Notes under the pieces: generated by a model
What the model was told of the DNA's origin: nothing
Databases searched by the model: none
Seen by the model: the letters and a program-made list of their open reading frames with translations, nothing else
Virus record (IMG/VR): IMGVR_UViG_3300025141_014441
Location: 1 to 44,824 of that record
From: a virus
Direction: 5' to 3' (one strand)
DNA length: 44,824 nt
Position numbers and translations under genes: made by a program
Shown: positions 24,781 to 44,824 of the stretch, in pieces
Position numbering within the stretch: the stretch's first letter is position 1
Layout of the letters: each line of letters begins with the position of its first letter

Positions 24781-25146
24781 TTAGTTGATCACAACTATTT
24801 CCAAAAAATCTTGTAAGTTAACATCGGTCATTCCATAAAAAACCTTTACAAGTAGTGCATGTCCTTCTTCCACAATACGAATATCGTGAAGAATAACAGT
24901 CGGAAGATATCGCGCAAACTGGACTTCCACAGTCGATCTAATTTCAGCAGCAGTATTAGCAGCCTCATAATTTTCAAATAGATATCGTTTTAAACCGACT
25001 CCAAAATCCGGCAACATAACTCGTTCACCGGGGACAGTCAAAAGAACGTTTTTGACATTCTGTTTTACATAGTCCCTTATATCATCTATGTTATTATAAA
25101 TACTATCACTCCCTTGGTTTAACGGTAATTGTACAGTAATACTCAT
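24781..25146 (-). CDS. Baseplate wedge protein gp25 (GPW/gp25 family)
   Basis: A 121-aa protein, the usual length for the family. It carries the signature LLTVPGERVMLPDFGVGLKR followed by YLFEN, diagnostic for the gpW/gp25 lysozyme-like baseplate subunit. The protein sits at the inner baseplate, binds gp6 and gp7, and is thought to nucleate sheath polymerisation. No catalytic function is implied by this family in most phages. The ATG at 25146 has an AGAGGAA site upstream, and the gene lies 13 bases after the 1531-aa gene. Order with gp6 downstream is the conserved W-J pair. Very confident. Confidence 0.95.
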   Translation of the reverse strand: MSITVQLPLNQGSDSIYNNIDDIRDYVKQNVKNVLLTVPGERVMLPDFGVGLKRYLFENYEAANTAAEIRSTVEVQFARYLPTVILHDIRIVEEGHALLVKVFYGMTDVNLQDFLEIVVIN

Positions 25147-32436: not shown

Positions 32437-32731
32437 CTATGTGGTCGTCCTTATAATCATTCAAATTGTCATAAATCGCCTCTATCTCTTCACCCGTGAT
32501 GATAGTATTTTGTTTATTGGTCTTCGCCATTAGTGAGGCAACCTTTACTAATTGCTCGTTCGACCTTTGGAGAGTTTCAAGATACTTGGCGACAACCATA
32601 CCGACGCGGTCGTGACTCAGCTTACCACTGTGAATGTCTTGACAAACTTCGTCAAGTGCGGTGTTGGTTGCCTCTCTATCTAAATCTATGTTTTTTAACG
32701 CCTTCTCAAGTAGTTCTTTAAATTTCGCCAT
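32423..32731 (-). CDS. Small acidic helical protein downstream of the late sigma factor
   Basis: A 102-aa, mostly helical protein (KFKELLEKALKNIDLDREA to VAKYLETLQRSNEQLVKVAS) ending in a very acidic tail, IYDNLNDYKDDHIDDDQ. No named family recognised. It overlaps the gp55-like gene by 14 bases upstream and the spike gene by 14 bases downstream, so the three are co-translated. In T4 the late co-activator gp33 is a small protein that works with gp55 and docks on the sliding clamp with its C-terminus. Size, linkage and the acidic C-terminus make a gp33-type role conceivable. That is a hypothesis from context, not from a sequence match. Confidence 0.6.
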   Translation of the reverse strand: MAKFKELLEKALKNIDLDREATNTALDEVCQDIHSGKLSHDRVGMVVAKYLETLQRSNEQLVKVASLMAKTNKQNTIITGEEIEAIYDNLNDYKDDHIDDDQ

Positions 32732-33395
32732 CGTCCCAATCTTCCTTAAACCCTCGATACTTCACTTTCAACTTTCCAAGAACCGTTGCTATTTGTTTTG
32801 TGTTGAGGTCGGTGATCTCTCTCATGTATAAGTAAATAGCTTTTTTGTTGAAAATTTCAATATCATTGCTGTGTTCAAACAGGACTTTAATGGCGTTTAT
32901 TACTTTTATTTCATTTTCTTTGTCGGCGGCGGCATACCAACCATCTAAAGAGTCGCGAAAATGATGAACAAATTCTTCTTTTTGTCTGTCTTGTTCGTAA
33001 GGGTTTTGACTCACTAAGGCGTCTTCATATTGGTGGTAACCATCTATATTTGTCTCAGTCCTCATCCTCTTGGCTGTTTTTTTAACCTTGTGGATAAACC
33101 AATTTTTGGTAACGACCGAAAAATAAGAAAAGGCTTTAGAGCCTTTATTGGGATCATACTTGTCAAGAATGGTAACCAACCACGCCTTGCACTCTTCTCG
33201 CAGATAATCAATATTGGGAAGAGTGGTAAACTTATAAGTATAAATAATTTTGTCTACCAACTCATCAAACGCAGGATGAATAAACTGTATGTAAAGCTGT
33301 TCTTTTTCAAATCGGTCTGTGATGGCGCAATATTTTACGATGGCGTCTTCATGAACCTTTGTAAAATATTTGCGCTTCGGTCTCTTTCTCGGCAT
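32718..33395 (-). CDS. gp55-like late transcription sigma factor
   Basis: A 225-aa protein resembling T4 gp55 (185 aa) and its homologues in other T4-like phages. The core is a sigma region 2-like helix set with KGSKAFSYFSVVTKNWFIHK (residues about 84-103), preceded by LREECKAWLVTILDKYDP. T4 gp55 replaces the host sigma factor on RNA polymerase and recognises a TATAAATA-type -10 element of late genes. I chose the ATG at 33395, with GGAG six bases upstream; an in-frame TTG one codon earlier is less likely. The C-terminus KYRGFKEDWDDGEI could hold a clamp-binding motif. Its 5' end overlaps the upstream membrane protein gene by 47 bases. Expected to drive the structural genes in this window. Confidence 0.85.
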   Translation of the reverse strand: MPRKRPKRKYFTKVHEDAIVKYCAITDRFEKEQLYIQFIHPAFDELVDKIIYTYKFTTLPNIDYLREECKAWLVTILDKYDPNKGSKAFSYFSVVTKNWFIHKVKKTAKRMRTETNIDGYHQYEDALVSQNPYEQDRQKEEFVHHFRDSLDGWYAAADKENEIKVINAIKVLFEHSNDIEIFNKKAIYLYMREITDLNTKQIATVLGKLKVKYRGFKEDWDDGEI

Positions 33396-33672
33396 CAAGA
33401 TCTCCAGTTAATTCCGCTTGCAAGTCAAGAATATCTTTTAAATGAACATTTAGTTCATTGCTCATCTTCACAAAAGCCTCTATTGTTGCATCCCCATAAT
33501 AAGTCTCACTAGCATTTAACTTTTGCACAAATTCATCATAATTTTCCACAAAGAAATATAGTTCTTCAAGTCGGATTTGGATATTAGCAAGAGTTTTAAA
33601 CAGGTTTCGAACAAGCCACAAAAGGAGTACCATTGCAGCGACCAAACTTATAATTACTACCCACTCAATCAT
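33349..33672 (-). CDS. Small single-pass membrane protein
   Basis: A 107-aa protein with one N-terminal transmembrane helix (residues about 4-24, WVVIISLVAAMVLLLWLV) followed by a short basic stop (RN, then K) and a long amphipathic helical region of about 70 residues. This is an N-out or N-in type II-like topology with a cytoplasmic or periplasmic coiled region; orientation is uncertain. No family recognised. It could be a phage-encoded envelope protein, for example one affecting lysis or superinfection, but nothing in the sequence proves this. It overlaps the zinc-ribbon gene by 8 bases and the gp55-like gene by 47 bases, the longest overlap in the window. Confidence 0.65.
   Translation of the reverse strand: MIEWVVIISLVAAMVLLLWLVRNLFKTLANIQIRLEELYFFVENYDEFVQKLNASETYYGDATIEAFVKMSNELNVHLKDILDLQAELTGDLDAEKETEAQIFYKGS
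33396..33405 (-). promoter_or_regulatory. Ribosome-binding site deciding the gp55 start
   Basis: The minus strand reads GGAGA at 33405-33401, followed by a short spacer to the ATG at 33395, with six bases between GGAG and the start. It lies inside the coding sequence of the upstream 107-aa protein and favours the ATG over the neighbouring TTG. Confidence 0.6.
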
Positions 33673-33934
33673 CCGCTTTAAACTCGTTTGACGGAGCCTC
33701 CCTTTGCATCTGTTTTAATATTTCACGATTTGCTTCAATTCCCTCTTTTGTTTCCTCTCCCACCTTTCGTTTGGAAAAGGGCGCGTCGTTAAATGTGGTT
33801 GTAAACGGCTGTGGAATTTTTTCAAAATCTGTAATTCTTCGGTCACAGACGCACACCTTGCGTTCCTCAGTCATAGACCTCCACTCTTCCCACTCTTCGG
33901 GGCAGACGAGGCATCGGTAATAATATTTAGGCAT
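33665..33934 (-). CDS. FmdB-like zinc-ribbon protein
   Basis: An 89-aa protein opening MPKYYYRCLVCPEEWEEWRS, the form of the FmdB/zinc-ribbon family (M-P-x-Y-x-Y-x-C-x-x-C, then a W/F-E-x-x-S-M segment). Cys8 and Cys11 form the first ligand pair. The second pair is Cys28 and Cys30, spaced CxC rather than the usual CxxC, so metal binding may be altered. The C-terminal half is charged and probably disordered. Proteins of this type are common small genes in T4-like phages; their role is unclear, with regulation or protein binding proposed. Overlaps both neighbours by 8 bases, in the core block between the sugar module and the sigma factor. Confidence 0.7.
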   Translation of the reverse strand: MPKYYYRCLVCPEEWEEWRSMTEERKVCVCDRRITDFEKIPQPFTTTFNDAPFSKRKVGEETKEGIEANREILKQMQREAPSNEFKADD

Positions 33935-34109
33935 CAGCTTCTTCTTGTGGCATTATTTCAAACGTGGGGGGATTTTTTACATCAAGTTCTCCATGAACGG
34001 TTTCAAAAAAATCCAAATTTCTAAGAATGCCCGTTACGTCGATTTGGTCCAACAAACCCTTTTGTAATGTCATCATCACTGCGCCTAATGCTTGATTTGA
34101 TAGTTTCAT
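33927..34109 (-). CDS. Conserved small phage protein of unknown function
   Basis: A 60-aa protein starting MKLSNQALGAVMMTLQKGLL and ending in an acidic tail. It is helical in the first half and has a PPTFEI strand near the end. The style matches small proteins found near gp55 in T4-like phages of aquatic bacteria, but I cannot name a family. The ATG overlaps the stop of the GDP-mannose dehydratase gene as ATGA, with GGAG upstream inside the dehydratase coding region. This is therefore the exact join between the sugar module and the core phage genes. Downstream it overlaps the zinc-ribbon gene by 8 bases. Confidence 0.65.
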   Translation of the reverse strand: MKLSNQALGAVMMTLQKGLLDQIDVTGILRNLDFFETVHGELDVKNPPTFEIMPQEEADA

Positions 34110-35086
34110 TTATTTTTCTCCTTTTTTAAATCTTCGAAGTACATGTCTTTTGCCAAAAGACTAAAATCATATTCAGGTTGCCATTTCAAAATATCTCTTG
34201 CTTTGGATGAATCACCCAGCAAATATGGCACTTCCTGTGGTCTAAAATATTTTTTGTTTATTTTCAAATGTTGTTTGGGATCTCCCAATTCAGCTTGCTT
34301 CCAAACCTCGTGCAAAAACTCTTTTACACTATGCGTTTCACCAGTTGCGATAACATAATCGTCAGGTTTTTTTTGTTGTAACATAAGATGCATCGCCTTT
34401 ACATAGTCTTTAGCGTGACCCCAATCCCGTTTAGCAGCAACGTTTCCCAACTCTATGTGCGTCTGGTTTCCCAATCGTATATTAGCCGCAGCCATCGTAA
34501 TCTTTCTTGTGACAAAGGTTTCACCTCTTCGCGGGGATTCGTGATTAAAAAGAATACCGCTGCTTGCGTGCAAACCATAAGAAACTCTGTAGTTTCTCAC
34601 CAAGTTGTGGGCGAATACCTTAGCACAAGCATAAGGGGAGGCGGGCATTAGTCGGGAACTTTCATTGTACCCCGCTTCTGGAATTTCGGAATTTTCACCA
34701 AACATTTCTGATGAACTGGCTTGATAAAATCGGCAAGTAGGTAACACATGACGGATGGCTTCTAAAATGCGCGTTGTACCCAAGACGATGCCACTAACAG
34801 TATCTTCGGGTACATCAAAAGAAACTTTGACATGAGATTGCGCTGCAAGATTATAAAACTCGGTAGGCTTATATTCCAAAAGCAATCGATACGTTGAACC
34901 GGGGTCATTAAGATCCCAATATTCCATACGAAAGTTCTTATGATTATAAATGTGGTTAAGCCTCTCTGTGCAAATGAGAGACGTTCTCCTTTTCAGACCC
35001 ACCACAAAATAACCGCCGTGCAATAATAACTCGGCTAAATATGATCCGTCTTGACCCGTTATACCACTTATAAATGCAGTTCTCAA
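34106..35086 (-). CDS. gmd: GDP-mannose 4,6-dehydratase
   Basis: A 326-aa SDR enzyme converting GDP-D-mannose to GDP-4-keto-6-deoxy-D-mannose, first step to GDP-L-fucose and related deoxysugars. The NADP-binding motif GITGQDGSYLAE starts at residue 8. The catalytic residues are visible as SSSEMFG (Glu127 with a preceding Ser) and YACAK (Tyr152, Lys156). NHESPRRGETFVTRK and KRDWGHAKDYV are family hallmarks. Length is slightly below the usual 340-370. The start is TTG at 35086: an in-frame stop lies four codons upstream, AGAGGT sits five bases before it, and the family N-terminus aligns from this codon. It overlaps the GDP-fucose synthase stop as TTGA. All functional residues are present, so activity is expected. 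Confidence 0.95.
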   Translation of the reverse strand: MRTAFISGITGQDGSYLAELLLHGGYFVVGLKRRTSLICTERLNHIYNHKNFRMEYWDLNDPGSTYRLLLEYKPTEFYNLAAQSHVKVSFDVPEDTVSGIVLGTTRILEAIRHVLPTCRFYQASSSEMFGENSEIPEAGYNESSRLMPASPYACAKVFAHNLVRNYRVSYGLHASSGILFNHESPRRGETFVTRKITMAAANIRLGNQTHIELGNVAAKRDWGHAKDYVKAMHLMLQQKKPDDYVIATGETHSVKEFLHEVWKQAELGDPKQHLKINKKYFRPQEVPYLLGDSSKARDILKWQPEYDFSLLAKDMYFEDLKKEKNK

Positions 35087-36000
35087 CTCACACCTCTAAC
35101 ATCTGGATAGTTTATTATAAACCAATCGCAAGTTTTCTTTAACCCCTCGGCAAGAGGTGTATAAGCACTCTTCTCCCAGCCAAGGTCTAACAGTTTTTGA
35201 TTGCTGCTGGGTTTTCTATGTTGTCCTGCGGGCTTATCTGTGTTCCAGACGACTTCGCCGCCATATTCTAAAAACTCACAAAGCATCTCCACAACTTCTT
35301 TGATTGAATACTCGTCAGTGTTGCCGATGTTTATTGGTGTTGACTCATCGTAGTGTTCCAACAAGAAAAGAAGTATGCGAGCAATATCTTCCGAATAAGT
35401 AAACTCTCTTAAAGGAGAGCCATCACCCCAGCACTCAACGAAAGACTTTTTTTCTATTTTTGCTTCCCAAATTTTTCTCATCAAGGCTGGAATGACGTGA
35501 CTATTTTCTAAGTCAAAGTTGTCATTTTCCCCATAAAGATTGTTGGGGATCGCGGTGATAAAGTTGCAACCGTATTGCTGTCGATACGCACGGGACATTA
35601 CATCCACCATTCTCTTGGCATAAGCATATCCGAAGTTTGATGAGTGTGGTGGACCCATGTGTAGTTGGTCCTCCGTGAGAGGATATGTTACATATGGAGC
35701 ATCAGGATAAACACAAGTGGAAAGAAGCGAAACAACCTTTTTCGCGTCAGCGTCCTTTGCTCGTTGCAACACATTTTGATTAATTTTTTCATTTTCGTAA
35801 TAAAAATCGCCCATTGCACTCATGTTTGCTTGAACGCCGCCCACTTTAGCCGCAAGATGAATAATAATATCTTCGGCTAAAAAATTAACGTCGGATTGGC
35901 GAAGCAAGTCCATATCCCGGCGATCGGGATAATAGGCAGTGGGAACAACTCGCTTAAAAGCCGAACCGACCATTCCTGTGCCACCTGTGATAGTAATCAT
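35083..36000 (-). CDS. fcl: GDP-L-fucose synthase
   Basis: A 305-aa SDR enzyme that epimerises and reduces GDP-4-keto-6-deoxymannose to GDP-L-fucose with NADPH. The dinucleotide motif GGTGMVGSAF begins at residue 6. Catalytic residues match the E. coli enzyme: Ser94 and Cys96 in LSTCVYP, Tyr125 and Lys129 in YAYAK, and His168 in ENSHVIPALMRK. PNNLYGENDNFDLENSHVIP and WGDGSPLREFTYSEDIA are family signatures. Length is normal for the family (about 310-320). A strong GGAGGA site precedes the ATG. The dehydratase gene follows with a 4-base overlap, so the two steps of the pathway are made together. Complete and probably active. Confidence 0.95.
   Translation of the reverse strand: MITITGGTGMVGSAFKRVVPTAYYPDRRDMDLLRQSDVNFLAEDIIIHLAAKVGGVQANMSAMGDFYYENEKINQNVLQRAKDADAKKVVSLLSTCVYPDAPYVTYPLTEDQLHMGPPHSSNFGYAYAKRMVDVMSRAYRQQYGCNFITAIPNNLYGENDNFDLENSHVIPALMRKIWEAKIEKKSFVECWGDGSPLREFTYSEDIARILLFLLEHYDESTPINIGNTDEYSIKEVVEMLCEFLEYGGEVVWNTDKPAGQHRKPSSNQKLLDLGWEKSAYTPLAEGLKKTCDWFIINYPDVRGVS
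35084..35097 (-). promoter_or_regulatory. Ribosome-binding site and TTG start of the dehydratase
   Basis: On the minus strand AGAGGT (35097-35092) is followed by the five-base spacer GTGAG and the TTG at 35086-35084. The site lies in the last codons of the GDP-fucose synthase gene. No ATG or GTG is available before the upstream in-frame TAG, so TTG is the only reasonable start. Confidence 0.75.
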
Positions 36001-36001
36001 T

Positions 36002-36781
36002 TTATTCCTCCGATGTTCCAGTTGTTCTTATAGCTGCGTCTTTAGTTATGTATTTTACATTATCCACCACCCAGCACCTTTTGTCCAATGTTTCATCAAA
36101 GCTTTTAAAACCGTGTTGAGGGTACAGGCAAAAAATATCCACAGCAGAATCGTAATGAAATTTGATACACGACGACAACAAATGGCTTCCAGACCACAAA
36201 CAAACAAAAGTTTTACAACTGTGTATAATATCACAATAATGAAATAAGTCTCGCAACAAGAGAATAGAACCATTGTTGGGGGTTTGAGCCTTGGCAAAAG
36301 TGGCATCAAATTTGGTTGTTATGCTATAAAAAAAGTTGTCACCAACAAACTCTGCCAAAAGCTTCTCGACCAAAAGTTTGTCATATAGCCCGTCTCTAAA
36401 GCAAGTAATCGAACCAGCATCAACCACGATAGAGTCTTTGTATTCTTCCAAAAGGCGAGGAGTGTAATAAATTTTAGCGTATTGATTATAAGCCAGAAAG
36501 CCGTGCCTCATTTCATTTATACCAATCATGTTATAATAAGAACGATGAGGAATTGCGGGTGCCACCGCGCCAGCATTGGGAGGCAAAGGAAGAACACCCA
36601 CTACATAAGGATTGTCGCGCCATACCAAATCATATATTTCCCTATTTCTATACGCATTTTCCGCACTAAGATAAAAATTTATTCCACTCTGTGAACATAA
36701 TTCTGGAAGGGTGGAAAACTGAAGATTGTCTCCCAAGCCGCCCCAAGGTTGAGCCAGAATCATTGAGTTATCGGTTAACAT
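36002..36781 (-). CDS. Putative glycosyltransferase (GT-B-like)
   Basis: A 259-aa protein with an N-terminal AQPWGGLGDNLQFSTLPEL motif, a glycine-rich opening like those of GT-B transferases such as family 9 heptosyltransferases and family 11 fucosyltransferases. The last half has FVCLWSGSHLLSSCIKF, resembling the nucleotide-sugar-binding part in which donor-side residues lie. I cannot assign a sugar or a numbered family. It lies between the fucosyltransferase-like gene (7-base overlap) and GDP-fucose synthase (one base apart), so it probably uses a product of this module. An alternative start is the Met at codon 7, but neither start has a strong ribosome-binding site. The transferase call is moderate. 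Confidence 0.5.
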   Translation of the reverse strand: MLTDNSMILAQPWGGLGDNLQFSTLPELCSQSGINFYLSAENAYRNREIYDLVWRDNPYVVGVLPLPPNAGAVAPAIPHRSYYNMIGINEMRHGFLAYNQYAKIYYTPRLLEEYKDSIVVDAGSITCFRDGLYDKLLVEKLLAEFVGDNFFYSITTKFDATFAKAQTPNNGSILLLRDLFHYCDIIHSCKTFVCLWSGSHLLSSCIKFHYDSAVDIFCLYPQHGFKSFDETLDKRCWVVDNVKYITKDAAIRTTGTSEE

Positions 36782-37563
36782 CGCCTATACTCTTGTTGGT
36801 GGGCAACGAGAAGTTCTCTTTGAGCAGGCGAGTTTTCCCATTCTCCTATTTTAATATAATTTTTCATTTGAAACAAATTTACCTTTACATCAGCACAATT
36901 GTACAACATCGTCGGATTCAAGTGTTCTTTCAAAAACAACTCAGTACAATATAAAGTTTGTATGTGGGGCGAACACAGCGCAGCAGCGACTGCGAAGGTG
37001 CCCACACCAGAAGTAACCAGATTTTCCGAGCGCAACAACATAGAAAAATCGTTTTGAAGGGAACTGGCTTGTATCATCACCCGATTATCTTTTTCCAACT
37101 CCCGTAAAACGGGATTTCTTCGATCGTCCTCTGTAACAATTATAACATGTTCATAGCCTTCCATCACTTTTTTATAAAACGAGAGAGGATTTTGAATATA
37201 ATCGCGGGGTGGGGGAGATGCTAAAAAAACATCTCCACTTCGAATGTGAATAACTAAAATATCATTACCCAAAGGAAAAGATTGGGGAAATGTAAAATGT
37301 GGAACGACATATTTAAGAAGAATACTTCTTCTTTTCTCGTTTAAATCCACAGCATCACACTCAAAGTCAATATCGGGACCACTATAAAAATAAAATCTAG
37401 AAGAAAAGCGTGTCGGTTTTCCGAACTCTATTGTAAATGGTTTGATTAACGGATGCGGAGGACACACAAAGTTTATCTCATTTTTCCGACAAAAATATAT
37501 GGCGTTTGAGATTTGCTGAAGGTTGTTCCCCGTCCTTCCATACCACTCAGAAATTGTATACAC
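36775..37563 (-). CDS. Fucosyltransferase-like protein (GT11-type fold)
   Basis: A 262-aa protein with the GT-B fucosyltransferase pattern. Near the N-terminus is YGRTGNNLQQISNAIYF, corresponding to the G-x-x-G-N-x-x-x-Q motif of alpha-1,2-fucosyltransferases. Residues about 105-111 read HIRSGDV, the H-x-R-x-G-D motif that binds the donor in the alpha-1,2/alpha-1,6 superfamily. A later SENLVTSGVGTFAVAAAL segment matches the conserved serine-rich donor-site loop. The neighbouring genes make GDP-L-fucose, which fits as donor. The start is GTG at 37563, overlapping the radical SAM stop as TAGTG, with GAAGGAG seven bases upstream. No membrane segment. The acceptor is unknown. Confidence 0.7.
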   Translation of the reverse strand: MYTISEWYGRTGNNLQQISNAIYFCRKNEINFVCPPHPLIKPFTIEFGKPTRFSSRFYFYSGPDIDFECDAVDLNEKRRSILLKYVVPHFTFPQSFPLGNDILVIHIRSGDVFLASPPPRDYIQNPLSFYKKVMEGYEHVIIVTEDDRRNPVLRELEKDNRVMIQASSLQNDFSMLLRSENLVTSGVGTFAVAAALCSPHIQTLYCTELFLKEHLNPTMLYNCADVKVNLFQMKNYIKIGEWENSPAQRELLVAHQQEYRRC

Positions 37564-37577
37564 TATGTTGCTCCTTC
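37561..37577 (-). promoter_or_regulatory. Ribosome-binding site and GTG start of the fucosyltransferase-like gene
   Basis: GAAGGAG (37577-37571, minus strand) lies in the end of the radical SAM gene, with a seven-base spacer before GTG at 37563-37561. The GTG shares its G with the upstream TAG stop. Confidence 0.7.
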
Positions 37578-39068
37578 ATTCGCATTGCTATTACACAAAA
37601 TGAATTCTGGTATGGTTATATTACCTTGACCCATTGAGTGTTCATACTTTACAGCCGGTGCCGCAGAATGAAAGGGAATGTTGAGTTTTTTCCGTACCTC
37701 TTTTTCTAAAGCGTCCCTTTGTATAACTAACTCTTCTGGGCTGATGTAATCCGTCCACACATATGAAATATATCCACCATCGGGGTCTCCTTTATAATAG
37801 TCTGCTTCGGTCAAATAATTAAGAGATTTTTGATAAAGCTTGTCTCCCGTGATGTTGGAGGTATACACATAATGATCTCCCTGTTTTGTTGCCTCATCAA
37901 AATAAGGCGAACCGGGATATGTTGTAATAATTGTACAATCAAACTCTTCTGGTTGTGTTTTTAATAACCAATTTTTGGTATTTTCAATTGTTTTCTGGCT
38001 TTCGCCAGCATGACCCATAGACATAAGCGCCTTGACCTTAAGCCCATGTTTTTTTGCTATTTCAACGCACTTGGTATTGTCATCTTTTGTTGCCCTCTTT
38101 TGAATAGTTGTTAAAATTCTTTCATCGCCAGATTCAAAACCCGTTAGTATCCATCTAAAGCCTGCGCGATACATGGCTGTTGCCTGAACTTCGTTGAATA
38201 GCTCGGCTTTTATAAAGCCTCTTAGTTTAAAATCAACGCCATACTTTTCTTGTAAATCACTAATCTGGTTCATCATTGATACCATGTTTTTATTGACATT
38301 GAGTTCATCATCGTAAAACATAAATGCTTTAAAGCCATATTTTAAATATAGGTGTTCCATTTCATTAACAACCGAATCAATTCCTCTGGTGCGGACCTTT
38401 CTTAAAAAAGGAGAATTGCGACCGCTGCAAAAAGTACAATAAAATGGACAGCCCAACTGGGCGATCAAGCTTGTTGCATTTATGCCTTCGATCTGATAAT
38501 TGTATGAGTCGATATCTACCAAGTGGCGTGCAGGCATTGGAAAATCGGTAAATTGTTGATTACTCAAAAACAATGGTGATAATCTATCATCGGCATCAAC
38601 AATTCCGCTATCCACTTCAAGTGCTTCAAAAATTGCCAACTCGCCGTCGCCACAAACTAATACGTTATATAAATCAAGCAATTGCTCAATATCTTTTGTA
38701 GCACGATCACTACCCAAAAAATTGTTTTTCTTTTCTTTCTTTGACGCCGAGTTCATCAAGGAAACATGTGGTCCTCCAAGAATTAGTTTATCGACTTTGC
38801 CCTTTAAAGCCTTAGCGATCTGCACGGCAAATGGCACCTGTGGTGTTGTAGCCGTTATTCCAACAACACTTGCGCTATTCTCCATTCCAACATAATCATT
38901 TAAAACATCAAGAAAATTAAATATGCCGCTCAAATCAATAAAATCTACTTTCCATCCTTTTTGTTCCAATATAGCAGCAACTTTTAAAATACCAATGTGC
39001 ATAAAGACGCGCTCATCTAATAAAAACGGAGAAGGTGGCGTGACAAGACATATGTGTTTAACGCTCAT
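37563..39068 (-). CDS. B12-binding-type radical SAM enzyme
   Basis: A 501-aa protein with two parts. Residues 1-150 form a Rossmann-like cobalamin-binding-type domain (ICLVTPPSPFLLDERVFMHI, VVGITATTPQVPFAVQIAK, LILGGPHVSL), of the kind in BchE/P-methylase-like radical SAM enzymes; the classic DxHxxG cobalamin ligand is not evident, as is usual in this subclass. The radical SAM core starts at about residue 195 with the cluster motif CPFYCTFC (Cys207, Cys211, Cys214). Such enzymes carry out difficult methylations, ring changes or oxidations. In a sugar cluster it could alter a sugar or lipid carrier, but the substrate cannot be read from sequence. Overlaps the exostosin-like gene by 11 bases. 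Confidence 0.85.
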   Translation of the reverse strand: MSVKHICLVTPPSPFLLDERVFMHIGILKVAAILEQKGWKVDFIDLSGIFNFLDVLNDYVGMENSASVVGITATTPQVPFAVQIAKALKGKVDKLILGGPHVSLMNSASKKEKKNNFLGSDRATKDIEQLLDLYNVLVCGDGELAIFEALEVDSGIVDADDRLSPLFLSNQQFTDFPMPARHLVDIDSYNYQIEGINATSLIAQLGCPFYCTFCSGRNSPFLRKVRTRGIDSVVNEMEHLYLKYGFKAFMFYDDELNVNKNMVSMMNQISDLQEKYGVDFKLRGFIKAELFNEVQATAMYRAGFRWILTGFESGDERILTTIQKRATKDDNTKCVEIAKKHGLKVKALMSMGHAGESQKTIENTKNWLLKTQPEEFDCTIITTYPGSPYFDEATKQGDHYVYTSNITGDKLYQKSLNYLTEADYYKGDPDGGYISYVWTDYISPEELVIQRDALEKEVRKKLNIPFHSAAPAVKYEHSMGQGNITIPEFILCNSNANEGAT

Positions 39069-39867
39069 TTAATATTTTATTCTCCCAATAAGACACAAGC
39101 AGCATATCTTTAGGATTGTTTTTTACTCTTTCATACTCTGACTGTATAAAATCTAAATCTTCTAATTTGTCCCAAGTCTCTAATACTATGACAGGCAATT
39201 CAGTAAAAAACGAATTACCCCTGTTTTTCTTAATTATCGGAACTCTCCCCAAATAGAGTGCTTCCCAAAAACGATGAGTTTCGGCGGGGGCGTTGCCTCT
39301 TGGGCAGACCGTCATTTTATGTTCCAATATGCCAGCTAGATATTCACTATATGATCTAGAATTTGTCTCTTCGTGTGTCTGTGAAATATCAATTGTAACA
39401 TATGGCAGTTTTTTACAAATATTATAAACCTCTCGCCTTATTGGGTGAGTTTGTAAACTAAAATTTGCATACATTTCTTTTTCTGGATTTGTTGACGGTG
39501 GATCACACAGCAAAAGTATCTTGTCGGCTGTTTTTTTCCATCCCTTTCCATGACCCTCCACTATACACTCTTCGTGATTATCAATACCATATGGCATTCC
39601 AACCACCAAAGGATTGTCAGTGATAACACCTTGGGCAAACCATTTTTTGATACAAGAAGGTGCCAAACTTATCAACTTGTCATTAATGCCGATATCACTG
39701 TTACCAGTAATTAAAATAGATGGAACATTGTGGTCTCTCAAGGAAACAAAAAGCTGCGAAAGGAAATCTGTTTTACAGAAAAAAATATCTTTCCCATTAT
39801 GAAAATGGGCAAACTTATTGTATTGTATTATGTCTGATGGTGTGTAAAAATCATTCGTCTCGATCAT
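39058..39867 (-). CDS. Exostosin-like glycosyltransferase
   Basis: A 269-aa protein whose C-terminal half has the exostosin/GT47-like pattern: an EYLAGILEHKMTVCPRGNA strand-loop followed by ETHRFWEALYLGRVPIIKK. The Arg/Gly-rich loop and E-A-L-x-x-G-x-x-P motif are the nucleotide-sugar-binding part of the family. The N-terminal half is shorter than in eukaryotic exostosins, as in bacterial and phage members. No membrane anchor. It overlaps the HldD-like gene as ATGA, and the radical SAM gene by 11 bases. It probably transfers a sugar made by this module onto a glycan or protein. Donor and acceptor are unknown. Confidence 0.75.
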   Translation of the reverse strand: MIETNDFYTPSDIIQYNKFAHFHNGKDIFFCKTDFLSQLFVSLRDHNVPSILITGNSDIGINDKLISLAPSCIKKWFAQGVITDNPLVVGMPYGIDNHEECIVEGHGKGWKKTADKILLLCDPPSTNPEKEMYANFSLQTHPIRREVYNICKKLPYVTIDISQTHEETNSRSYSEYLAGILEHKMTVCPRGNAPAETHRFWEALYLGRVPIIKKNRGNSFFTELPVIVLETWDKLEDLDFIQSEYERVKNNPKDMLLVSYWENKILNER

Positions 39868-40685
39868 GCCGTACTCCGGTTTAAAAAAACACGATACTCC
39901 TCAACACCACGAGCTAAACCAAATTCGGGTTTCCAGTGCGGCATCCACTTCTTTTTATCACCACATGTGTAAAACTGATATCCGAGGGGGATCTCATTTT
40001 CATCTATATATTTATATTCAATATTAGCAAGTGTCAACATCTCTTCAAAAGTAGAGGAAACGGCGGTACTAACTTCATAATAACGACCAGCCAGATGTTG
40101 ATAGTTTTTCATAGCAAAAATATTTGCAGACACCACATCATCAATATAAATAAAATCACGACTTGGAGTATGAGGAAAAAGCAAAACATTTTCACTGTTC
40201 ATTTTTTTTTGATATGCCTGAAAAAGAAACGAAGCCATTTTTCCCTTGTTGTGTTCTCCCCGTCCATAAACATTAAAATATCTAAGGGCTGTGCCACCCG
40301 CGTTTATAACATAATCCTCGGCAACATATTTACTCCAGCCATATAAATTTGATGGGTGTTGATTGTTTGTCCCATAATTTGCCGCCGATGAAGAATAAAC
40401 CAATGGGACTGCTTTTTCGCGGCACCAATCTGCCAAAAGTTTGGTAGCTTCATAGTTACGAATCATCATATAGTTTACTCGTTTTTCCAAAGTATCGGAA
40501 CAAGCCCCTACATGAAAAATGACGTTAGGATAAAAATCCTCTAACGTTTTTTTCATTCGTATTTGCCAATCAGGCATCTCCAAATATTCTTCATCCATTT
40601 CTAAAATTTGCGTATAAGTAAGACGCAGGCGTTCTACAATCCTCTTTCCTATAAATCCTTTCGCACCAGTTACTAAAATTTTCAT
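39864..40685 (-). CDS. HldD-like nucleotide-heptose epimerase (SDR)
   Basis: I start this gene at the ATG at 40685, which overlaps the kinase stop as ATGA and gives 273 residues; a longer upstream extension carries no family sequence. MKILVTGAKGFIG is the NAD(P)-binding motif. Strong matches to ADP-L-glycero-D-manno-heptose 6-epimerase follow: IFHVGACSDT, VYSSSAANYG, LYGWSKYVAEDYV with Tyr115 and Lys119, and ALRYFNVYGRGEHNKGKMAS. Lys147 in that last block aligns with E. coli HldD Lys178, the second base specific to this subfamily. A segment of about 30 residues after the first helix is missing relative to E. coli HldD. I infer that it epimerises or otherwise processes a nucleotide-activated heptose. 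Confidence 0.8.
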   Translation of the reverse strand: MKILVTGAKGFIGKRIVERLRLTYTQILEMDEEYLEMPDWQIRMKKTLEDFYPNVIFHVGACSDTLEKRVNYMMIRNYEATKLLADWCREKAVPLVYSSSAANYGTNNQHPSNLYGWSKYVAEDYVINAGGTALRYFNVYGRGEHNKGKMASFLFQAYQKKMNSENVLLFPHTPSRDFIYIDDVVSANIFAMKNYQHLAGRYYEVSTAVSSTFEEMLTLANIEYKYIDENEIPLGYQFYTCGDKKKWMPHWKPEFGLARGVEEYRVFLNRSTA

Positions 40686-41425
40686 ATAATGGTGACTCCT
40701 CGTTGGGTGACAACCTGTGAAGCACACTTATTAGCAAAACGAATACTCTTTTCAATGTCCTGAGTTAATAAAAATTTAACCGCCAAAGCAGCCATGAAGC
40801 TATCCCCGGCACCGGAAGTGTCACGCACTTCAATTTTTTTCACTCGATACTTTTTTCCTTTATAAACGCAGCCGCCGCTTCCTTGGGTATGAATAAGCTT
40901 ATTTAACATAAGGGCGTTGTTGTTAATAAAAGATTTCGACCGTTGATATTCATAATCATTAATCTTAATATACGTCGCGTTGGTCGCCCACTCGCCCAAA
41001 ATCTTTTTAGTATCTAAAAACACCATTTGATGTTTAGAACAAATATGCAAAATATCTTCTTCGGATAAAAATCCCTTATCGTAATCGGCTATAACAATTA
41101 AATCATAATCATAGTCTAGTTCTTCAACATTAATACGAGATATATTATGAGACGTATCTACCCGAAAAAAAGCGTGATTTGAATTATTATGCATATAGCG
41201 TGTCTTAGTGATACCATTCCAATTAGCATTAGTAAAAATATCACACTGTGGAAAAATACTGCTTATATTTCTGTAAACATTTTGTGCCATACCACCGTTT
41301 TCCACTTGATGTTTTACACTTAAAACAGGAACCGGTAGTGCGGGGGCAAGACGTTCTGCGCCGCAATACACAAAAATATCGCGGCAGCTTTCTCCAATAA
41401 CTAAAATTTTCTTTTTTACAGACAA
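40682..41425 (-). CDS. PfkB-family sugar kinase, HldE kinase-domain type
   Basis: A 247-aa ribokinase-family protein. AERLAPALPVPVL near residue 23 matches the R-x-S-P-E-A-P-V-P-V motif of the HldE (RfaE) heptose-7-phosphate kinase domain; GGMAQNVYRNIS and IADYDKGFL are the matching substrate and sheet motifs. DTSGAGDSF carries the catalytic Asp208 and anion hole. The HldE domain usually has about 315 residues, so this one is shortened in the middle. No adenylyltransferase domain is fused and none is seen in the window. The start is TTG at 41425, inside the end of the TPP enzyme gene, with a weak AGAGA site. Likely product: a sugar bisphosphate, probably heptose 1,7-bisphosphate. Confidence 0.8.
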   Translation of the reverse strand: MSVKKKILVIGESCRDIFVYCGAERLAPALPVPVLSVKHQVENGGMAQNVYRNISSIFPQCDIFTNANWNGITKTRYMHNNSNHAFFRVDTSHNISRINVEELDYDYDLIVIADYDKGFLSEEDILHICSKHQMVFLDTKKILGEWATNATYIKINDYEYQRSKSFINNNALMLNKLIHTQGSGGCVYKGKKYRVKKIEVRDTSGAGDSFMAALAVKFLLTQDIEKSIRFANKCASQVVTQRGVTII

Positions 41426-42618
41426 CTTTTTCTCTCTACAATCATTACTGGTCCCTTTGACATCTTTGCTTTTTCATAAGCAATCAAGACCTCCTTCGGA
41501 GTGCTTGGTTCAAATATTGGAAAATCTACCATCTCTCTAAAGGTGGAAGCAAAATCTTGCGAATGGGTTGGACCTGAATAAAACGGTCCACCATCAGCCA
41601 CCACTGTGCGTAAAATGAGTGGAACATTGTATTCCCCGTGAGAAAGTCTGTTAATGTGCTGAATGTGGTTCCCAATTGCATCAGCGGCGACGAGCATAAA
41701 ATCGTGTCTTTCATAATATACCACAGCTTTGATGCCCTCAAAGGACATTCCTATCCCCAGACCAGCCATTAAATTTTCAGCCACGGGGGTTTCAATTTTT
41801 TGTTCGGGGGAAACATTCTTTAAATTTCCCATAGCATCTCCATACTTTACATTGTAGCCAATAAACACACTTCCACCTTCTCCCAACTCCGTCATAGCTT
41901 TTGTTGTCGCCTCTTTATAAGTCAGGCTAGCGGGGTCAATATTTGTAAAATCGGGAAAATGTTGCGGGGGGATAGGAGGAAAATATTCGTCACAAGTTTT
42001 CTTATTGGTCCTCTTGAGATCAATCATATCTGGAGTGCGACAATGTGGATAAGTAATATCATAATAATACTTTATCACGGAAGGGGAGTCCCACTTAATA
42101 TCACCAGTTTTACCCCACCTATCACAATTGGTAGCTTCCACAGAACGATCGTTGTTTTCTATAATAAATTTACAAGGCAAATCCCACCCATCAACATAGC
42201 GGACAGCTTCGGCTAAATGCCCTGAGTCCTCAGTTCCATCACCAACAAAACACCACACCTTTTGTGTTGATCCTTTTCGCTTAAGTGCTAAAGCAATCCC
42301 GGCGGCGATGGCAGGGGTGCCACCAATAATAGCAGAAGTAAAATAATTCCTTTTTCTATCATATATAAACATGCTGCGACCGTCGAGAATTCTCTGCTTG
42401 ACCGTTTCTGGGGGTATCCCGTGCAGTAAAGCATGATAATGTCCTCGGTGGTTAGAGAGAACATAGTCGCCCTCATTTATATCTTTAAAAATCTCTAACA
42501 ACTGTTCTTCGTTGCCTCCCGAAAGATGAAAAAGAAACGGTAATTGACAATCTTTGTAAAGCTCTACAATCTCGTCTTCAAAAGCAATCAATTTTTCCTT
42601 AGTCCAAATAGTTTTCAT
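41416..42618 (-). CDS. Compact TPP-dependent E1-type enzyme (alpha and beta domains fused)
   Basis: A 400-aa protein containing both thiamine-diphosphate halves. Residues 1-200 are the E1-alpha/PP domain: SNHRGHYHALLHG, then the TPP-Mg motif GDGTEDS (126-132) ending in ENND (Asn155, Asn156). Residues 230-400 are the Pyr/E1-beta domain: TPVAENLMAGLGIG with the conserved Glu281, and GPTHSQDF. The usual C-terminal transketolase domain is absent and the halves are short. No E2 or lipoyl protein is nearby, so a dehydrogenase complex is unlikely. Together with sugar enzymes it may make or cleave a keto-sugar or transfer a two-carbon unit; the substrate is unknown. Overlaps the alcohol dehydrogenase gene as ATGA. 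Confidence 0.8.
   Translation of the reverse strand: MKTIWTKEKLIAFEDEIVELYKDCQLPFLFHLSGGNEEQLLEIFKDINEGDYVLSNHRGHYHALLHGIPPETVKQRILDGRSMFIYDRKRNYFTSAIIGGTPAIAAGIALALKRKGSTQKVWCFVGDGTEDSGHLAEAVRYVDGWDLPCKFIIENNDRSVEATNCDRWGKTGDIKWDSPSVIKYYYDITYPHCRTPDMIDLKRTNKKTCDEYFPPIPPQHFPDFTNIDPASLTYKEATTKAMTELGEGGSVFIGYNVKYGDAMGNLKNVSPEQKIETPVAENLMAGLGIGMSFEGIKAVVYYERHDFMLVAADAIGNHIQHINRLSHGEYNVPLILRTVVADGGPFYSGPTHSQDFASTFREMVDFPIFEPSTPKEVLIAYEKAKMSKGPVMIVERKSCL
41423..41436 (-). promoter_or_regulatory. Weak ribosome-binding site and TTG start of the kinase
   Basis: GAGAGA (41436-41431, minus strand) lies five bases before the TTG at 41425-41423. The TTG is the first available start that keeps the family N-terminus KKKILVIGES, and it overlaps the upstream gene by 10 bases. 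Confidence 0.5.
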
Positions 42619-43667
42619 AGTCGCTCCTCGTCGATGTGAATCATAATTCGCCCAGCGTTGCCAGTTTTCATTAAATCGAACGCCTCGTTTACCTTTTCCA
42701 AAGGAAAAACATGGGTAATAATTTTTTCGATGTCTATAAGTCCCGCTTTATACATCTTAATATAGCGCGGAATGTCTTCGTGTGGTGCTGTATCACCGCC
42801 TTGCGAAACTTTGACGGTTTGTCCTCTCGGAGTCCACATTTTAGTAGCGTCTGGCAGCAAGAGAGCCACGTCAGGCGGTGGTTGACCCACCAAAATATAT
42901 TTACCGTTATCAGCCAAATGTGAAAAAGTCTCAGAAATCACCGTAGAAATTCCTGTTGTGTCAATAATCACATCAAATTTGGCAATATCAAGGCGGGCGG
43001 TCTCTTGTGCTATTTTATGTTTACCCGCATTAATAAAAGCTGTTGCGCCGAGAGCAAGTGCTTTTTCTTTTTTATCTTCTTGTATATCAATCGCAACAAT
43101 CGGATAAGCACTTGCTAATTTAGCGCCCTGAATCAAATTTAACCCAACGCCGCCGCAGCCGATGATTAGCACACTTTCCCCAAATTTTAAGTTAGCGTCA
43201 TTATTAATGGTGCCCAATGCGGTTGTCATACCACAGCCGAGTAACGCACACAAATAGGGAGAAGTATCTGAGGGAACAGCAGTCGTTCTATTTTCAGAAA
43301 CGATCGAATATTCGCTCAAAGTTGTTACTTTGCCGCTGCTAATTTCTTTACCATTCAACACATATTTGGGAAACGGTGCGTCGATTCCTTCCCCTTTGCG
43401 CCAATGCATAACAACCTTGTCACCCACTTTAACGGTGGTAACACCGGGACCAATAGCCTCGACAATACCACACCCTTCGTGACCCATCAAATGCGGAAGA
43501 AATTTAGCATTTCCCTTATGACCTTTTATTTCATGAAGCTGTGCCCCGCACAACCCACTAACAATATTTTTTACCAATACCTGACCCACTTGTAAAGTTG
43601 TTAATTCAACTTCCATTAAAGCCAGTGGCGCATTCAATTTTTCTAAAACTGCTGCTCTAAATTTCAT
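42615..43667 (-). CDS. Zinc-dependent alcohol dehydrogenase (MDR family)
   Basis: A 350-aa medium-chain dehydrogenase. The catalytic-zinc ligands are visible: Cys39 in SGLCGAQLHE, His62-Glu63 in GHEGCG, and the Cys in LLGCGMTTALGT. A Rossmann motif IIGCGGVGLNLIQGAK follows. The loop that normally carries four structural-zinc cysteines (between VMHWRKGEG and KVTTLSEY) has none, so only the catalytic zinc is expected. It resembles the class III/formaldehyde dehydrogenase branch in sequence. In this setting it may oxidise or reduce a sugar or polyol hydroxyl for the TPP enzyme, whose gene follows with a 4-base overlap. The ATG has a GGGGA-type site. Confidence 0.85.
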   Translation of the reverse strand: MKFRAAVLEKLNAPLALMEVELTTLQVGQVLVKNIVSGLCGAQLHEIKGHKGNAKFLPHLMGHEGCGIVEAIGPGVTTVKVGDKVVMHWRKGEGIDAPFPKYVLNGKEISSGKVTTLSEYSIVSENRTTAVPSDTSPYLCALLGCGMTTALGTINNDANLKFGESVLIIGCGGVGLNLIQGAKLASAYPIVAIDIQEDKKEKALALGATAFINAGKHKIAQETARLDIAKFDVIIDTTGISTVISETFSHLADNGKYILVGQPPPDVALLLPDATKMWTPRGQTVKVSQGGDTAPHEDIPRYIKMYKAGLIDIEKIITHVFPLEKVNEAFDLMKTGNAGRIMIHIDEERL

Positions 43668-43679
43668 TTATTCCCCAGC

Positions 43680-44480
43680 CTATTTATATATTTCATATCC
43701 GAAAGAAGTTTGTTCGCTGCACTCATGGAAGTATTTTTCTATCGCCAAGATTGCATCGTCAGTGGGTAATGTAAGCCACTCTTTGACGTTCTTGTTATAC
43801 CAAAAACCAGCGGTCTCCCAACCAGCATTTCTATAAAGTTCATCATAACACTCTTCGGGAGTATAATCTCTAAAAAGAATATTTTTTTCTCTTTTTATAG
43901 CATATACGTTGTTAAATGTAAGGTTGACAATATCATAGCCATGTTTTTCAAACAACTCACCAAATTTGCAAATACTAGCTCCGTAATAGTGACTCAGATC
44001 CGACCAGTAGTTTTCGTGATAGTTGATGGTAAATTTTATTGGTGGTGGTATTTTTTCGTTTATTTCTGCGACTATTAATGTTGGTGTAAATTTTTGTAAA
44101 AGCGACTCTAATACAAAATAATCATATCCGTCAATATCAATGTCTACCAAATCTGGCTGACGATCTGGAAAATATTTGTTATGATTTTTTATCTTATTTT
44201 CAAGTAATTCAACCACGTTATATGGAGTAACCTTTTCTGTTATTGCTAAAAAGTTTTGTTCATTTTGTTCTAAAGAGAGAACTTGATGCTGGCGATGTGG
44301 GTGACACTCACACAAAACAATCATATCAGCTTTATTTCTTACCGAACTTGGTACATTGGAATTAAATGCTCCGATATCAACGTAAAACCCGCCGTCATCA
44401 ATGCCGAGCAATCTTAGATAACTTTCTAAAACTTTCGCGTCGTCATTGGTGTTGTTATTTATAACCTTGCCGTCTATCAT
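43680..44480 (-). CDS. FkbM-like SAM methyltransferase
   Basis: A 266-aa protein with the SAM-binding motif FYVDIGAFNSNVPSS and a later PDLVDIDIDGYDYFVLESLL strand-helix, the form of FkbM-type O-methyltransferases. IVAEINE follows as the next core strand. These enzymes often methylate sugar hydroxyls in polysaccharides or glycolipids. The post-core region is longer than average and Tyr/Asn-rich. A clear AAAGGAGA site lies 10 bases before the ATG. The SDR gene ends 56 bases upstream, the largest gap in the window. The alcohol dehydrogenase starts 12 bases downstream. The family is likely; the acceptor is not known. Confidence 0.7.
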   Translation of the reverse strand: MIDGKVINNNTNDDAKVLESYLRLLGIDDGGFYVDIGAFNSNVPSSVRNKADMIVLCECHPHRQHQVLSLEQNEQNFLAITEKVTPYNVVELLENKIKNHNKYFPDRQPDLVDIDIDGYDYFVLESLLQKFTPTLIVAEINEKIPPPIKFTINYHENYWSDLSHYYGASICKFGELFEKHGYDIVNLTFNNVYAIKREKNILFRDYTPEECYDELYRNAGWETAGFWYNKNVKEWLTLPTDDAILAIEKYFHECSEQTSFGYEIYK

Positions 44481-44536
44481 TTCTAATCAATCTCCTTTTA
44501 TAACTCTGTGACTGTCTTCATTTTTTTCCTTGGCGG

Positions 44537-44824
44537 TTACCAAGCACTCCAACCGCCATCAACAATTAAATTTTGCCCTGTTACATATGATGAAGCCTGA
44601 GAAGATAAATATACCACCGCGCCGCATATTTCATCAGGGTGACCAACGCGCTTCATGGGCGTCTTTTCGCTTAACGCAACGATGTAACCGGGGCGGTCGG
44701 GCGAACCTTTTGTTTTTTTTGGAAAATTACCGGGACTTATACAGTTAACCCTTATTCCTTTGGAGGCATATTCTGTAGCTAATCTACGAGTCATTTGTAT
44801 AACGCCTCCTTTGGCTACTGAATA
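44537..44824 (-). CDS. SDR-family oxidoreductase, 5' end cut by the window
   Basis: Reading open to the window edge gives 96 C-terminal residues. The first residues, YSVAKGG, hold the catalytic Y-x-x-x-K of classical short-chain dehydrogenases exactly at the edge, so the true gene starts outside. Then come RLATEYASKGIRVNCISPGN, DEICGAVVYLSSQASSYVTG and QNLIVDGGWSAW, the usual C-terminal SDR motifs. The first ATG inside the window is internal, not a start. It is the first gene of the sugar module seen here, which probably continues beyond the window. Likely an NAD(P)-dependent oxidation or reduction of a sugar or keto intermediate. Confidence 0.9.
   Translation of the reverse strand, partial: YSVAKGGVIQMTRRLATEYASKGIRVNCISPGNFPKKTKGSPDRPGYIVALSEKTPMKRVGHPDEICGAVVYLSSQASSYVTGQNLIVDGGWSAW

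Follow-up and report, generated by a model that had tools for sequence, protein, structure and literature searches.

The viral DNA analysed here (IMG/VR record IMGVR_UViG_3300025141_014441, 44,824 bases, hereafter the window) carries a glycan module at positions 34106-44824 on the minus strand. In related phages, the locus is bounded by genes for PhoH, a nuclease and two glycosyltransferases (GT-I and GT-II) on one side and by o60, zinc-ribbon and gp55 genes on the other, and the content between these flanks is replaced as a block. What stands out is thus that the cassette can be exchanged at a site whose transferases are old and conserved, and not the list of enzymes. The module of the window would be one allele of such a glycan cassette at a fixed locus, where constant transferases are combined with a swappable donor-sugar cassette and most likely decorate virions; this reading is given about an even chance. 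An earlier note on this DNA had described a fixed module coupled to phage genes, which the gene order in relatives revises, as they retain the site and swap its contents.

Relatives were collected through gp55, the late sigma factor. At least 594 relatives were confirmed in viral contigs, and the best 80 were kept as loci (designated by L numbers); in 57 of them, 5 kb or more of sequence is available upstream of gp55. In these 57 relatives, 540 of the 541 upstream genes of at least 150 aa share the strand of gp55. Grouping of the upstream genes (552 including the window, 40% identity; a few loci include conserved flank genes) gave 306 families, and 199 of them were singletons. L087, with a gp55 91% identical to that of the window, has no window gene in common within 10 kb at 40% identity. 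Pairs with 90-98% identical gp55 (n = 30) share a mean of 4% of island genes, compared with 67% for the first three downstream genes. Above 98% gp55 identity (n = 12), six pairs are duplicates or near-duplicates, L089 shares 70% with L090 and L091, and four pairs share none (L089/L092, L147/L154, L112/L124 and L120/L132). For a Pfam scan, a random draw of 120 was taken from a pool of 302 near-gp55 upstream genes (51 loci); at least three of the drawn genes are flank genes. The scan found Epimerase in 39, GDP_Man_Dehyd in 36, NTP_transf_3 in 7, DegT in 6, FkbM in 6, CTP_transf_3 in 5 and Radical_SAM in 4; these families overlap and are among the first 25 of 98. Sugar families dominate the sample, and together with the co-orientation of 540 of 541 genes this indicates that the module is not there by chance.

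The edges of the replaced block were located by comparing close relatives. L147 and L154 are 97.3% identical over 11.6 kb starting 930 bp before gp55, where the island ends, while the upstream sequence available, about 9 kb, has no match. Between L089 and L092, identity is 89% in GT-II and returns to this level from o60 to 960 bp beyond the gp55 start; the intervening stretch of about 12 kb does not match. Genes beyond this 960-bp point also differ abruptly in L089/L092, so that two variable modules enclose a conserved o60-gp55-o102 block of about 2 kb in such pairs. A gp55-spanning alignment of at least 75% identity was obtained for 63 pairs of loci that have o60 and 5 kb or more upstream, and in 29 of these homology begins within 60 bp of the o60 start codon.

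The left flank was reached by extending 12 records upstream, of which 11 reach GT-II and 9 reach PhoH; L080 stops before the flank. Among the 80 loci, GT-II is visible in 18, GT-I in 14, the PD-(D/E)XK nuclease in 12 and PhoH in 11. The order is invariant as far as each locus reaches: PhoH, nuclease, GT-I, GT-II, cassette and o60. GT-I and GT-II are conserved GT4-type glycosyltransferases, and the distance from GT-II to gp55 varies between 0.8 and 20.9 kb. Two of the 18 loci with GT-II visible (L123 and L129) are empty sites, in which GT-II abuts o60, and the other 16 are occupied. In L213 (16327-18387), GT-II carries an added GT2 domain, and GT-II genes of other records have a similar length (669-714 aa). 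A GT-II gene of the L213 type may itself contain the left edge of the cassette.

On the right side, the cassette of the window runs directly into the following phage genes:

34106-34109, minus strand: ATGA junction of the Gmd stop and the o60 start, right boundary of the exchangeable cassette (sequence and alignments of relatives)
33927-34109, minus strand: o60, a conserved 60-aa gene, right flank of the cassette (tblastn in 74 of 81 sequences, window included)
33665-33934, minus strand: zinc-ribbon-like protein (PF09723, 2.3e-5, below cut-off)
33349-33672, minus strand: 107-aa protein with one predicted membrane helix (open reading frame and hydropathy prediction)
32718-33398, minus strand: gp55-like late sigma factor (phrog_234, 3.5e-5)
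24781-25146, minus strand: gp25-like baseplate wedge (PF04965, 2.1e-10; phrog_261)
22966-24756, minus strand: gp6-like baseplate wedge (phrog_10646, 3.6e-18; phrog_219)

The four-base overlap of the last module gene with the next phage gene had been proposed earlier and is confirmed. gp55 does not follow directly; o60, for which no Pfam or PHROG family was found, and the zinc-ribbon-like and 107-aa genes precede it. From 43667 to 25160, neighbouring genes either overlap or are separated by no more than 13 bp; within the module, a larger gap (56 bp) occurs once, from 44480 to 44537. The last upstream frame overlaps o60 or ends within 30 bp of it in 48 of 65 loci, the window being one of the 65, though the upstream gene differs; these are stop-to-stop frames of at least 100 codons, not individually confirmed as genes. 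An exact 4-base overlap with o60 occurs in 7 of 65 loci, and the ATGA at the o60 start mostly comes from the second codon (58 of 73 loci). These counts indicate that coupling is a general property of the o60 junction, of which the ATGA of the window is one form, and they support the claim that the module is contiguous and physically run together with phage genes. In contrast, coupling to late tail genes is not borne out in the form proposed: in relatives, the module sits between the PhoH/nuclease/GT genes and the gp55 block. In T4, gp55 is the sigma factor for late genes and not a late structural gene.

A stretch resembling a ribosome-binding site recurs directly before o60 in many of the 73 aligned loci, and no common promoter before o60 was seen by eye in the same alignment. 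The earlier note had regarded isolating promoters and terminators as evidence against a joined module. Terminator-like sites in a scan are at the shuffled level (14 versus 13.4 +/- 4.0), and promoter-like sites are slightly above it (54 versus 40.8 +/- 8.0). A reading of TATAAATA as a late promoter was considered and not used; it has five minus-strand copies, one of them intergenic and directly before an ATG. Downstream of gp55 lie a 102-aa protein (o102) and a 526-aa open reading frame (30856-32436), onward to gp25 and gp6. The latter frame had been labelled a spike gene, a name that finds no backing in Pfam, PHROG or significant PDB matches. Large open reading frames of 2969 aa (11158-20067) and 1531 aa (25160-29755) also lie among the baseplate genes, and the 1531-aa one has no PHROG match.

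The history of the cassette genes differs from that of gp55. Spearman correlations of cassette-gene identity with gp55 identity are 0.03 for Gmd, -0.28 for Fcl and -0.26 for PfkB (136, 45 and 36 pairs from 17, 10 and 9 sequences), that is, no tracking, among sequences preselected at 45% or more identity to the window. PhoH (0.59), o102 (0.58) and o362 (0.63) do correlate with gp55. It may be asked whether metagenome assembly joined unrelated phages at conserved flanks, as the gp55-clade relatives are all IMG/VR contigs and the cultured phages found are distant ones only. This artefact is considered very improbable. Six islands were found again in IMG/VR metagenome records under different numbers, 99.9-100% identical along 16-20.7 kb; this argues against it, although some of these records are possibly re-assemblies of one sample. 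In addition, the flanks around the o60 breakpoints are mostly 75-89% identical, which assemblers should not merge, and the cultured phages Immutovirus and Mel-JY01 show the same layout of nuclease, GT-I, GT-II and sugar genes.

The module of the window consists of 12 consecutive minus-strand open reading frames from 34106 to 44824, as had been claimed, the outermost being truncated at the contig end. Reading downstream, they are as follows:

44537-44824, minus strand: short-chain dehydrogenase/reductase (SDR) oxidoreductase (PF13561, 2.4e-27), 5' part missing at the contig end
43680-44480, minus strand: weakly FkbM-type methyltransferase-like protein (PF05050, 0.0011; 19.5 bits against a cut-off of 22.7)
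42615-43667, minus strand: zinc-dependent alcohol dehydrogenase, Zn-ADH (PF00107/PF08240; phrog_2640, 1.3e-94)
41416-42618, minus strand: fused E1-alpha/beta-like thiamine diphosphate (TPP) enzyme, 400 aa (PF00676, PF02779)
40682-41425, minus strand: PfkB sugar kinase, HldE kinase-domain-like (TIGR02198, 2.3e-28, below the equivalog cut-off; phrog_8133, 2.6e-88)
39864-40727, minus strand: HldD-like nucleotide-sugar epimerase (TIGR02197, 5.2e-50, below the equivalog cut-off)
39058-39867, minus strand: GT47/exostosin-like glycosyltransferase (PF24785, 1.5e-6, over cut-off; PF03016, 1.5e-5, below cut-off)
37563-39068, minus strand: B12-binding radical S-adenosylmethionine (SAM) enzyme (PF04055, PF02310)
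36775-37563, minus strand: gtA, a protein with an HIRSGD motif, possibly a fucosyltransferase (motif alone)
36002-36781, minus strand: gtB, GT9-like glycosyltransferase of heptosyltransferase fold (AlphaFold2 model and Foldseek)
35083-36000, minus strand: GDP-L-fucose synthase-like protein, Fcl (NF047922, 8.7e-75, below cut-off)
34106-35086, minus strand: GDP-mannose 4,6-dehydratase, Gmd (TIGR01472, 416 bits against a cut-off of 415)

The earlier assignment of the run to sugar enzymes holds for the ten genes with family or fold support (Gmd, Fcl, B12-radical SAM, GT47-like, HldD-like, PfkB/HldE-kinase-like, TPP E1-like, Zn-ADH, SDR and GT9/heptosyltransferase-like). For the FkbM-like protein the assignment is weak, below its Pfam cut-off, and gtA has no family. 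Gmd exceeds its curated cut-off by one bit. Fcl reaches 252 bits against a cut-off of 500 and has the expected motifs STCVYP, YAYAK and SHVIPAL. The window enzymes keep catalytic motifs of the kind seen in working enzymes. The FkbM-like protein is connected by iterative search with 88 proteins among the fetched loci. No tail fibre was recognized by family among the 12 genes, and no search aimed at tail fibres was made.

The two candidate transferases next to Fcl differ in their support. gtB gave a usable AlphaFold2 model (pLDDT 76.9, pTM 0.82), and Foldseek matched it to 3tov, TibC (4rap/4rb4), 1psw and WaaC, among them E. coli heptosyltransferases, at TM-scores of 0.36-0.61, which is agreement at the fold level only; the top ten also include one unrelated photosynthetic-complex chain. 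The TibC structure is titled a heptosyltransferase, and a GT9-like gtB thus agrees with the adjacent heptose-type genes. No relatives of gtB were found in the pattern scan, and iterative search among the fetched loci gave 14. For gtA, the HIRSGD motif is presumably a hint of a fucosyltransferase. It does not match the GT11 of S-SM2, its single-sequence model is unusable (pLDDT 40), and iterative search among the fetched loci gave one weak match, in L011 (E 0.0017).

The TPP protein matches the alpha and beta chains of pyruvate dehydrogenase E1 in PDB and carries GDG..NN, taken here to be a motif typical of thiamine diphosphate enzymes. It has 62 relatives in viral contigs, and full-length ones occur in the cultured cyanophages P-TIM68 and S-SM2 (two records each). 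Neighbourhoods were counted in 61 viral loci with a usable TPP gene, near-duplicates included. Of the 54 loci having at least two upstream genes, 45 have Zn-ADH as the gene directly before TPP and 52 have it within the two preceding genes; PfkB follows within the next three genes in 47 of 58 viral loci. The SDRs adjoining TPP genes in L033-L036, L038, L039 and L058 are 75-79% identical to the SDR of the window. A pattern-based scan of the genomes of 84,980 species found 32 cellular TPP loci; the first 14, at 47-71% identity, occur in candidate phyla radiation (CPR) bacteria, Prochlorococcus, archaea and scattered metagenome-assembled genomes, and the remainder are lower. The half of the module around TPP would be a travelling unit for an altered heptose-like sugar. 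In the L118, L143 and L148 islands and in L180-L182, the TPP enzyme is encoded by two adjacent unfused open reading frames. L175, a possibly mis-binned contig labelled Bifidobacterium breve, has two nucleotidyltransferase-like genes, Zn-ADH, TPP, PfkB, HldD and GmhA in a row, the fullest set of this heptose-type pathway among the cellular loci listed.

The HldE-type kinase scores 99 bits against 345 and the HldD-type epimerase 170 against 275, so both are homologous and under their equivalog cut-offs. For this reason, canonical ADP-heptose is not claimed, and a related sugar is the likelier product of the PfkB/HldD-like pair. The radical SAM enzyme has 14 viral relatives at 53-85% identity; among the records that carry them, gp55 has a close relative in four and a weak one in a further two, and the gene lies a few kb upstream of gp55 in L067 and L068. 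Phage relatives of the module, as opposed to host-only homologues, are abundant. A near-identity search for the module among cultured phages found none. The combination of enzymes had been called unusual, which these comparisons do not support: runs of Zn-ADH, TPP, PfkB and epimerase genes as in the window occur in P-TIM68 and S-SM2, in another phage lineage and genome place. Gmd and Fcl with fucosyltransferases are described for S-SCSM1 (PMC9602691), again of different lineage and place, and the accessible portion of that paper mentions no GT-I/GT-II flank.

The window itself has a gp55-like late sigma factor and gp25 and gp6 baseplate genes of T4-superfamily type. Gp23 is present in 11 of the 15 records of relatives, and the Gp23 of L201, the one member compared, has its closest matches in an uncultured phage, Immutovirus and Mel-JY01, and RM378 is among those that follow. 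By these protein similarities, the phages are placed in the far-T4 neighbourhood of the T4 superfamily. The photosynthesis marker psbA, sought as a clue to the host, was found in 0 of 15 records. Relatives covering 91-99% of GT-I occur in Immutovirus, in Mel-JY01, where the gene is annotated as two, and in an uncultured phage of 484 kb; the relative in RM378 covers 74% and comes after a gene whose annotation gives similarity to DNA polymerase I. Immutovirus (MW353176) and Mel-JY01 (PP395634) have the PD-(D/E)XK nuclease, one gene, GT-I, and then GT-II and sugar genes. The idea that cultured far-T4 phages lack the island was therefore ruled out, as it is present elsewhere in the genome, attached to GT-I/GT-II. 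In both phages the run is not beside gp55, and its contents differ from those seen here; thus, the cassette-gp55 junction is a feature of the clade studied here.

The function of the cassette can be reasoned from these data. Hydropathy prediction found no membrane helix in 548 of the 552 upstream proteins, and 0 of 552 had three or more, whereas, by the same method, 14 of the 237 proteins encoded near TPP relatives of bacteria and archaea had three or more. The loci are therefore not self-sufficient O-antigen loci, and the enzymes should act in the cytosol, as no export or polymerization machinery was seen. Possible acceptors are virion proteins, the lipopolysaccharide core of the host and DNA, the last being the least likely. 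In the proposed mechanism, the window module would have the same GT-I/GT-II left flank beyond the contig end, and transcription would run through the cassette into the gp55 block. The cassette would make activated sugars, namely GDP-L-fucose by Gmd and Fcl, and a heptose-type nucleotide sugar by PfkB and the HldD-like enzyme, which the Zn-ADH/TPP pair, the radical SAM enzyme and the methyltransferase may modify. GT-I and GT-II would start a short glycan on an acceptor that is constant and made by the phage, most probably a protein of the virion, and the cassette transferases (GT9-like, GT47-like and possibly a fucosyltransferase) would add sugars to it. Homologous recombination in the flanks would then exchange cassettes and change the sugar coat of the virion. 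A constant, phage-made acceptor is favoured because GT-I is retained across phages of Flavobacterium (Immutovirus), Microcystis (Mel-JY01) and Rhodothermus (RM378), and on this comparison a virion acceptor is placed ahead of the host surface with moderate confidence.

The main rival is that the enzymes remodel the host surface, altering lipopolysaccharide or another glycan from the cytoplasmic side, so that competitor adsorption or the loss of progeny to debris is blocked and cassettes are exchanged in step with the surface types of hosts. Sugars of the heptose and fucose type are characteristic of lipopolysaccharide, as are GT9-like transferases, and the high diversity of cassettes would also suit this explanation, which is the view in the available parts of published work on pelagimyophage (PMC7029224) and cyanophage (PMC9602691) glycan genes. 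It is nevertheless rather unlikely, as no flippase-, polymerase- or ligase-like polytopic protein occurs among the 552, GT-I is kept in phages of very different hosts, and phages that look like lytic T4 relatives would gain less from a late surface change. Glycosylation of DNA, with the two GT4 enzymes adding sugars to modified phage bases and the cassette varying the sugar against restriction, draws on the similarity of GT-I to the GT4-conflict domain PF20706 and on the nuclease and PhoH genes adjoining the transferases. This is improbable. The best PDB match of GT-I is the chlorovirus GT-B enzyme B736L, and the thymidylate synthase/hydroxymethylase family (PF00303), which T4-type hydroxymethyl bases need, was found in 0 of 15 records, a set that includes five clade records of 180-206 kb as well as several fragments and L078, which has no gp55 relative; the distant Mel-JY01 carries an annotated thymidylate synthase. 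No DNA sugar is known to have a pathway so long and varied. Finally, a recombination-prone spot could gather sugar genes from a shared pool as neutral or metabolic cargo with little effect on the phage. The two empty sites and a TPP gene from a pool common to cyanophages, CPR bacteria and Prochlorococcus genomes fit such cargo, but it is quite improbable given the 16 occupied sites of 18, the co-orientation of the upstream genes and the retained catalytic motifs.

Several observations weigh against the virion cassette. The contig of the window ends before the GT-I/GT-II flank, and GmhA, GmhB and a nucleotidyltransferase were not found among its 12 genes, although they may lie past the contig end. 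The kinase, the epimerase and Fcl score below their equivalog cut-offs, and gtA has no protein family, no convincing PDB match and no viral relative in the pattern scan. Among the 63 pairs of the edge comparison, homology begins downstream of o60 in 26 and well upstream in 8 (duplicates, or shared or related islands), and 8 of the 12 pairs above 98% gp55 identity keep most of the island in common. The cassette-gene correlations come from preselected sequences. GT-I (0.31), GT-II (0.27), the nuclease (0.29) and o60 (0.23) correlate weakly with gp55, and recombination therefore affects the flanks as well; in several pairs, an abrupt change is also seen past gp55. Weaker GT-I relatives occur in the unrelated phages phiPsal1, S-CBS4 and a faecal phage. 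RM378 has no sugar genes after its GT, and the gene that follows is weakly GT-II-like (20% identity), has no Pfam GT family and is absent from the GT-II search. Soluble cytosolic transferases could equally target the host lipopolysaccharide core at the inner face of the membrane.

Comparison with known systems places the locus more precisely. In the text accessible for Zaragoza-Solas et al. 2020 (PMC7029224), pelagimyophages and cyanomyophages have a host recognition cluster that contains tail fibres and is located between VrlC and gp14. It is likewise a hypervariable island of glycosyltransferase and sugar-nucleotide genes at a fixed spot in T4-superfamily phages. The present island differs in lying between GT-II and o60/gp55, in being rich in sugar enzymes and in having two conserved GT4-type transferases at its edge; the relatives' flanks are PhoH/nuclease/GT-I/GT-II and o60/gp55, and not VrlC and gp14. 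Capsid glycosylation of chloroviruses, as far as the consulted text of PMC9614988 describes it, is similar in having a conserved core glycan with strain-specific variable sugars, and B736L, the nearest PDB match of GT-I, comes from there. Chloroviruses differ in being algal viruses, and the role of B736L there is unresolved according to that text. Bacterial O-antigen and capsule loci also undergo block replacement between conserved flanks. Unlike those Wzx/Wzy loci, the phage islands have no polytopic flippase-, polymerase- or ligase-like protein. No paper on this island was found in the literature searches made. The main texts of two far-T4 papers (PMC7198788, PMC4360716) do not mention glycosyl, sugar or epimerase, and PMC7198788 states that far-T4 genomes carry genes 'putatively related to carbohydrate metabolism', listed in its supplement.

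It can be hypothesized, tentatively and with somewhat less than even confidence, that far-T4 phages have an ancestral virion glycosylation. A pair of invariant GT4 enzymes would begin the glycan on a virion protein that is itself constant, and the adjoining swappable cassette would determine the 'serotype' of the particle. In the clade studied here, the cassette would be exchanged whole, with its right edge at the o60 start codon, so that phages with near-identical gp55 would differ in their entire sugar coat. Phage glycan genes are usually listed singly as auxiliary metabolic genes, whereas here they make up a single locus whose edges are constant, whose alleles include empty ones and whose content is replaced as one block between close relatives. 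The phage group that carries it is common among public viral contigs. This cassette exchange resembles the bacterial swapping of surface-sugar gene blocks. That one transferase is retained by phages whose hosts are unrelated speaks for an acceptor made by the phage, and what the sugar genes decorate is testable in the cultured phages Immutovirus, Mel-JY01 and the sugar-gene-free RM378. If virions are indeed the target, these phages would have variable coats comparable to those of the chloroviruses.

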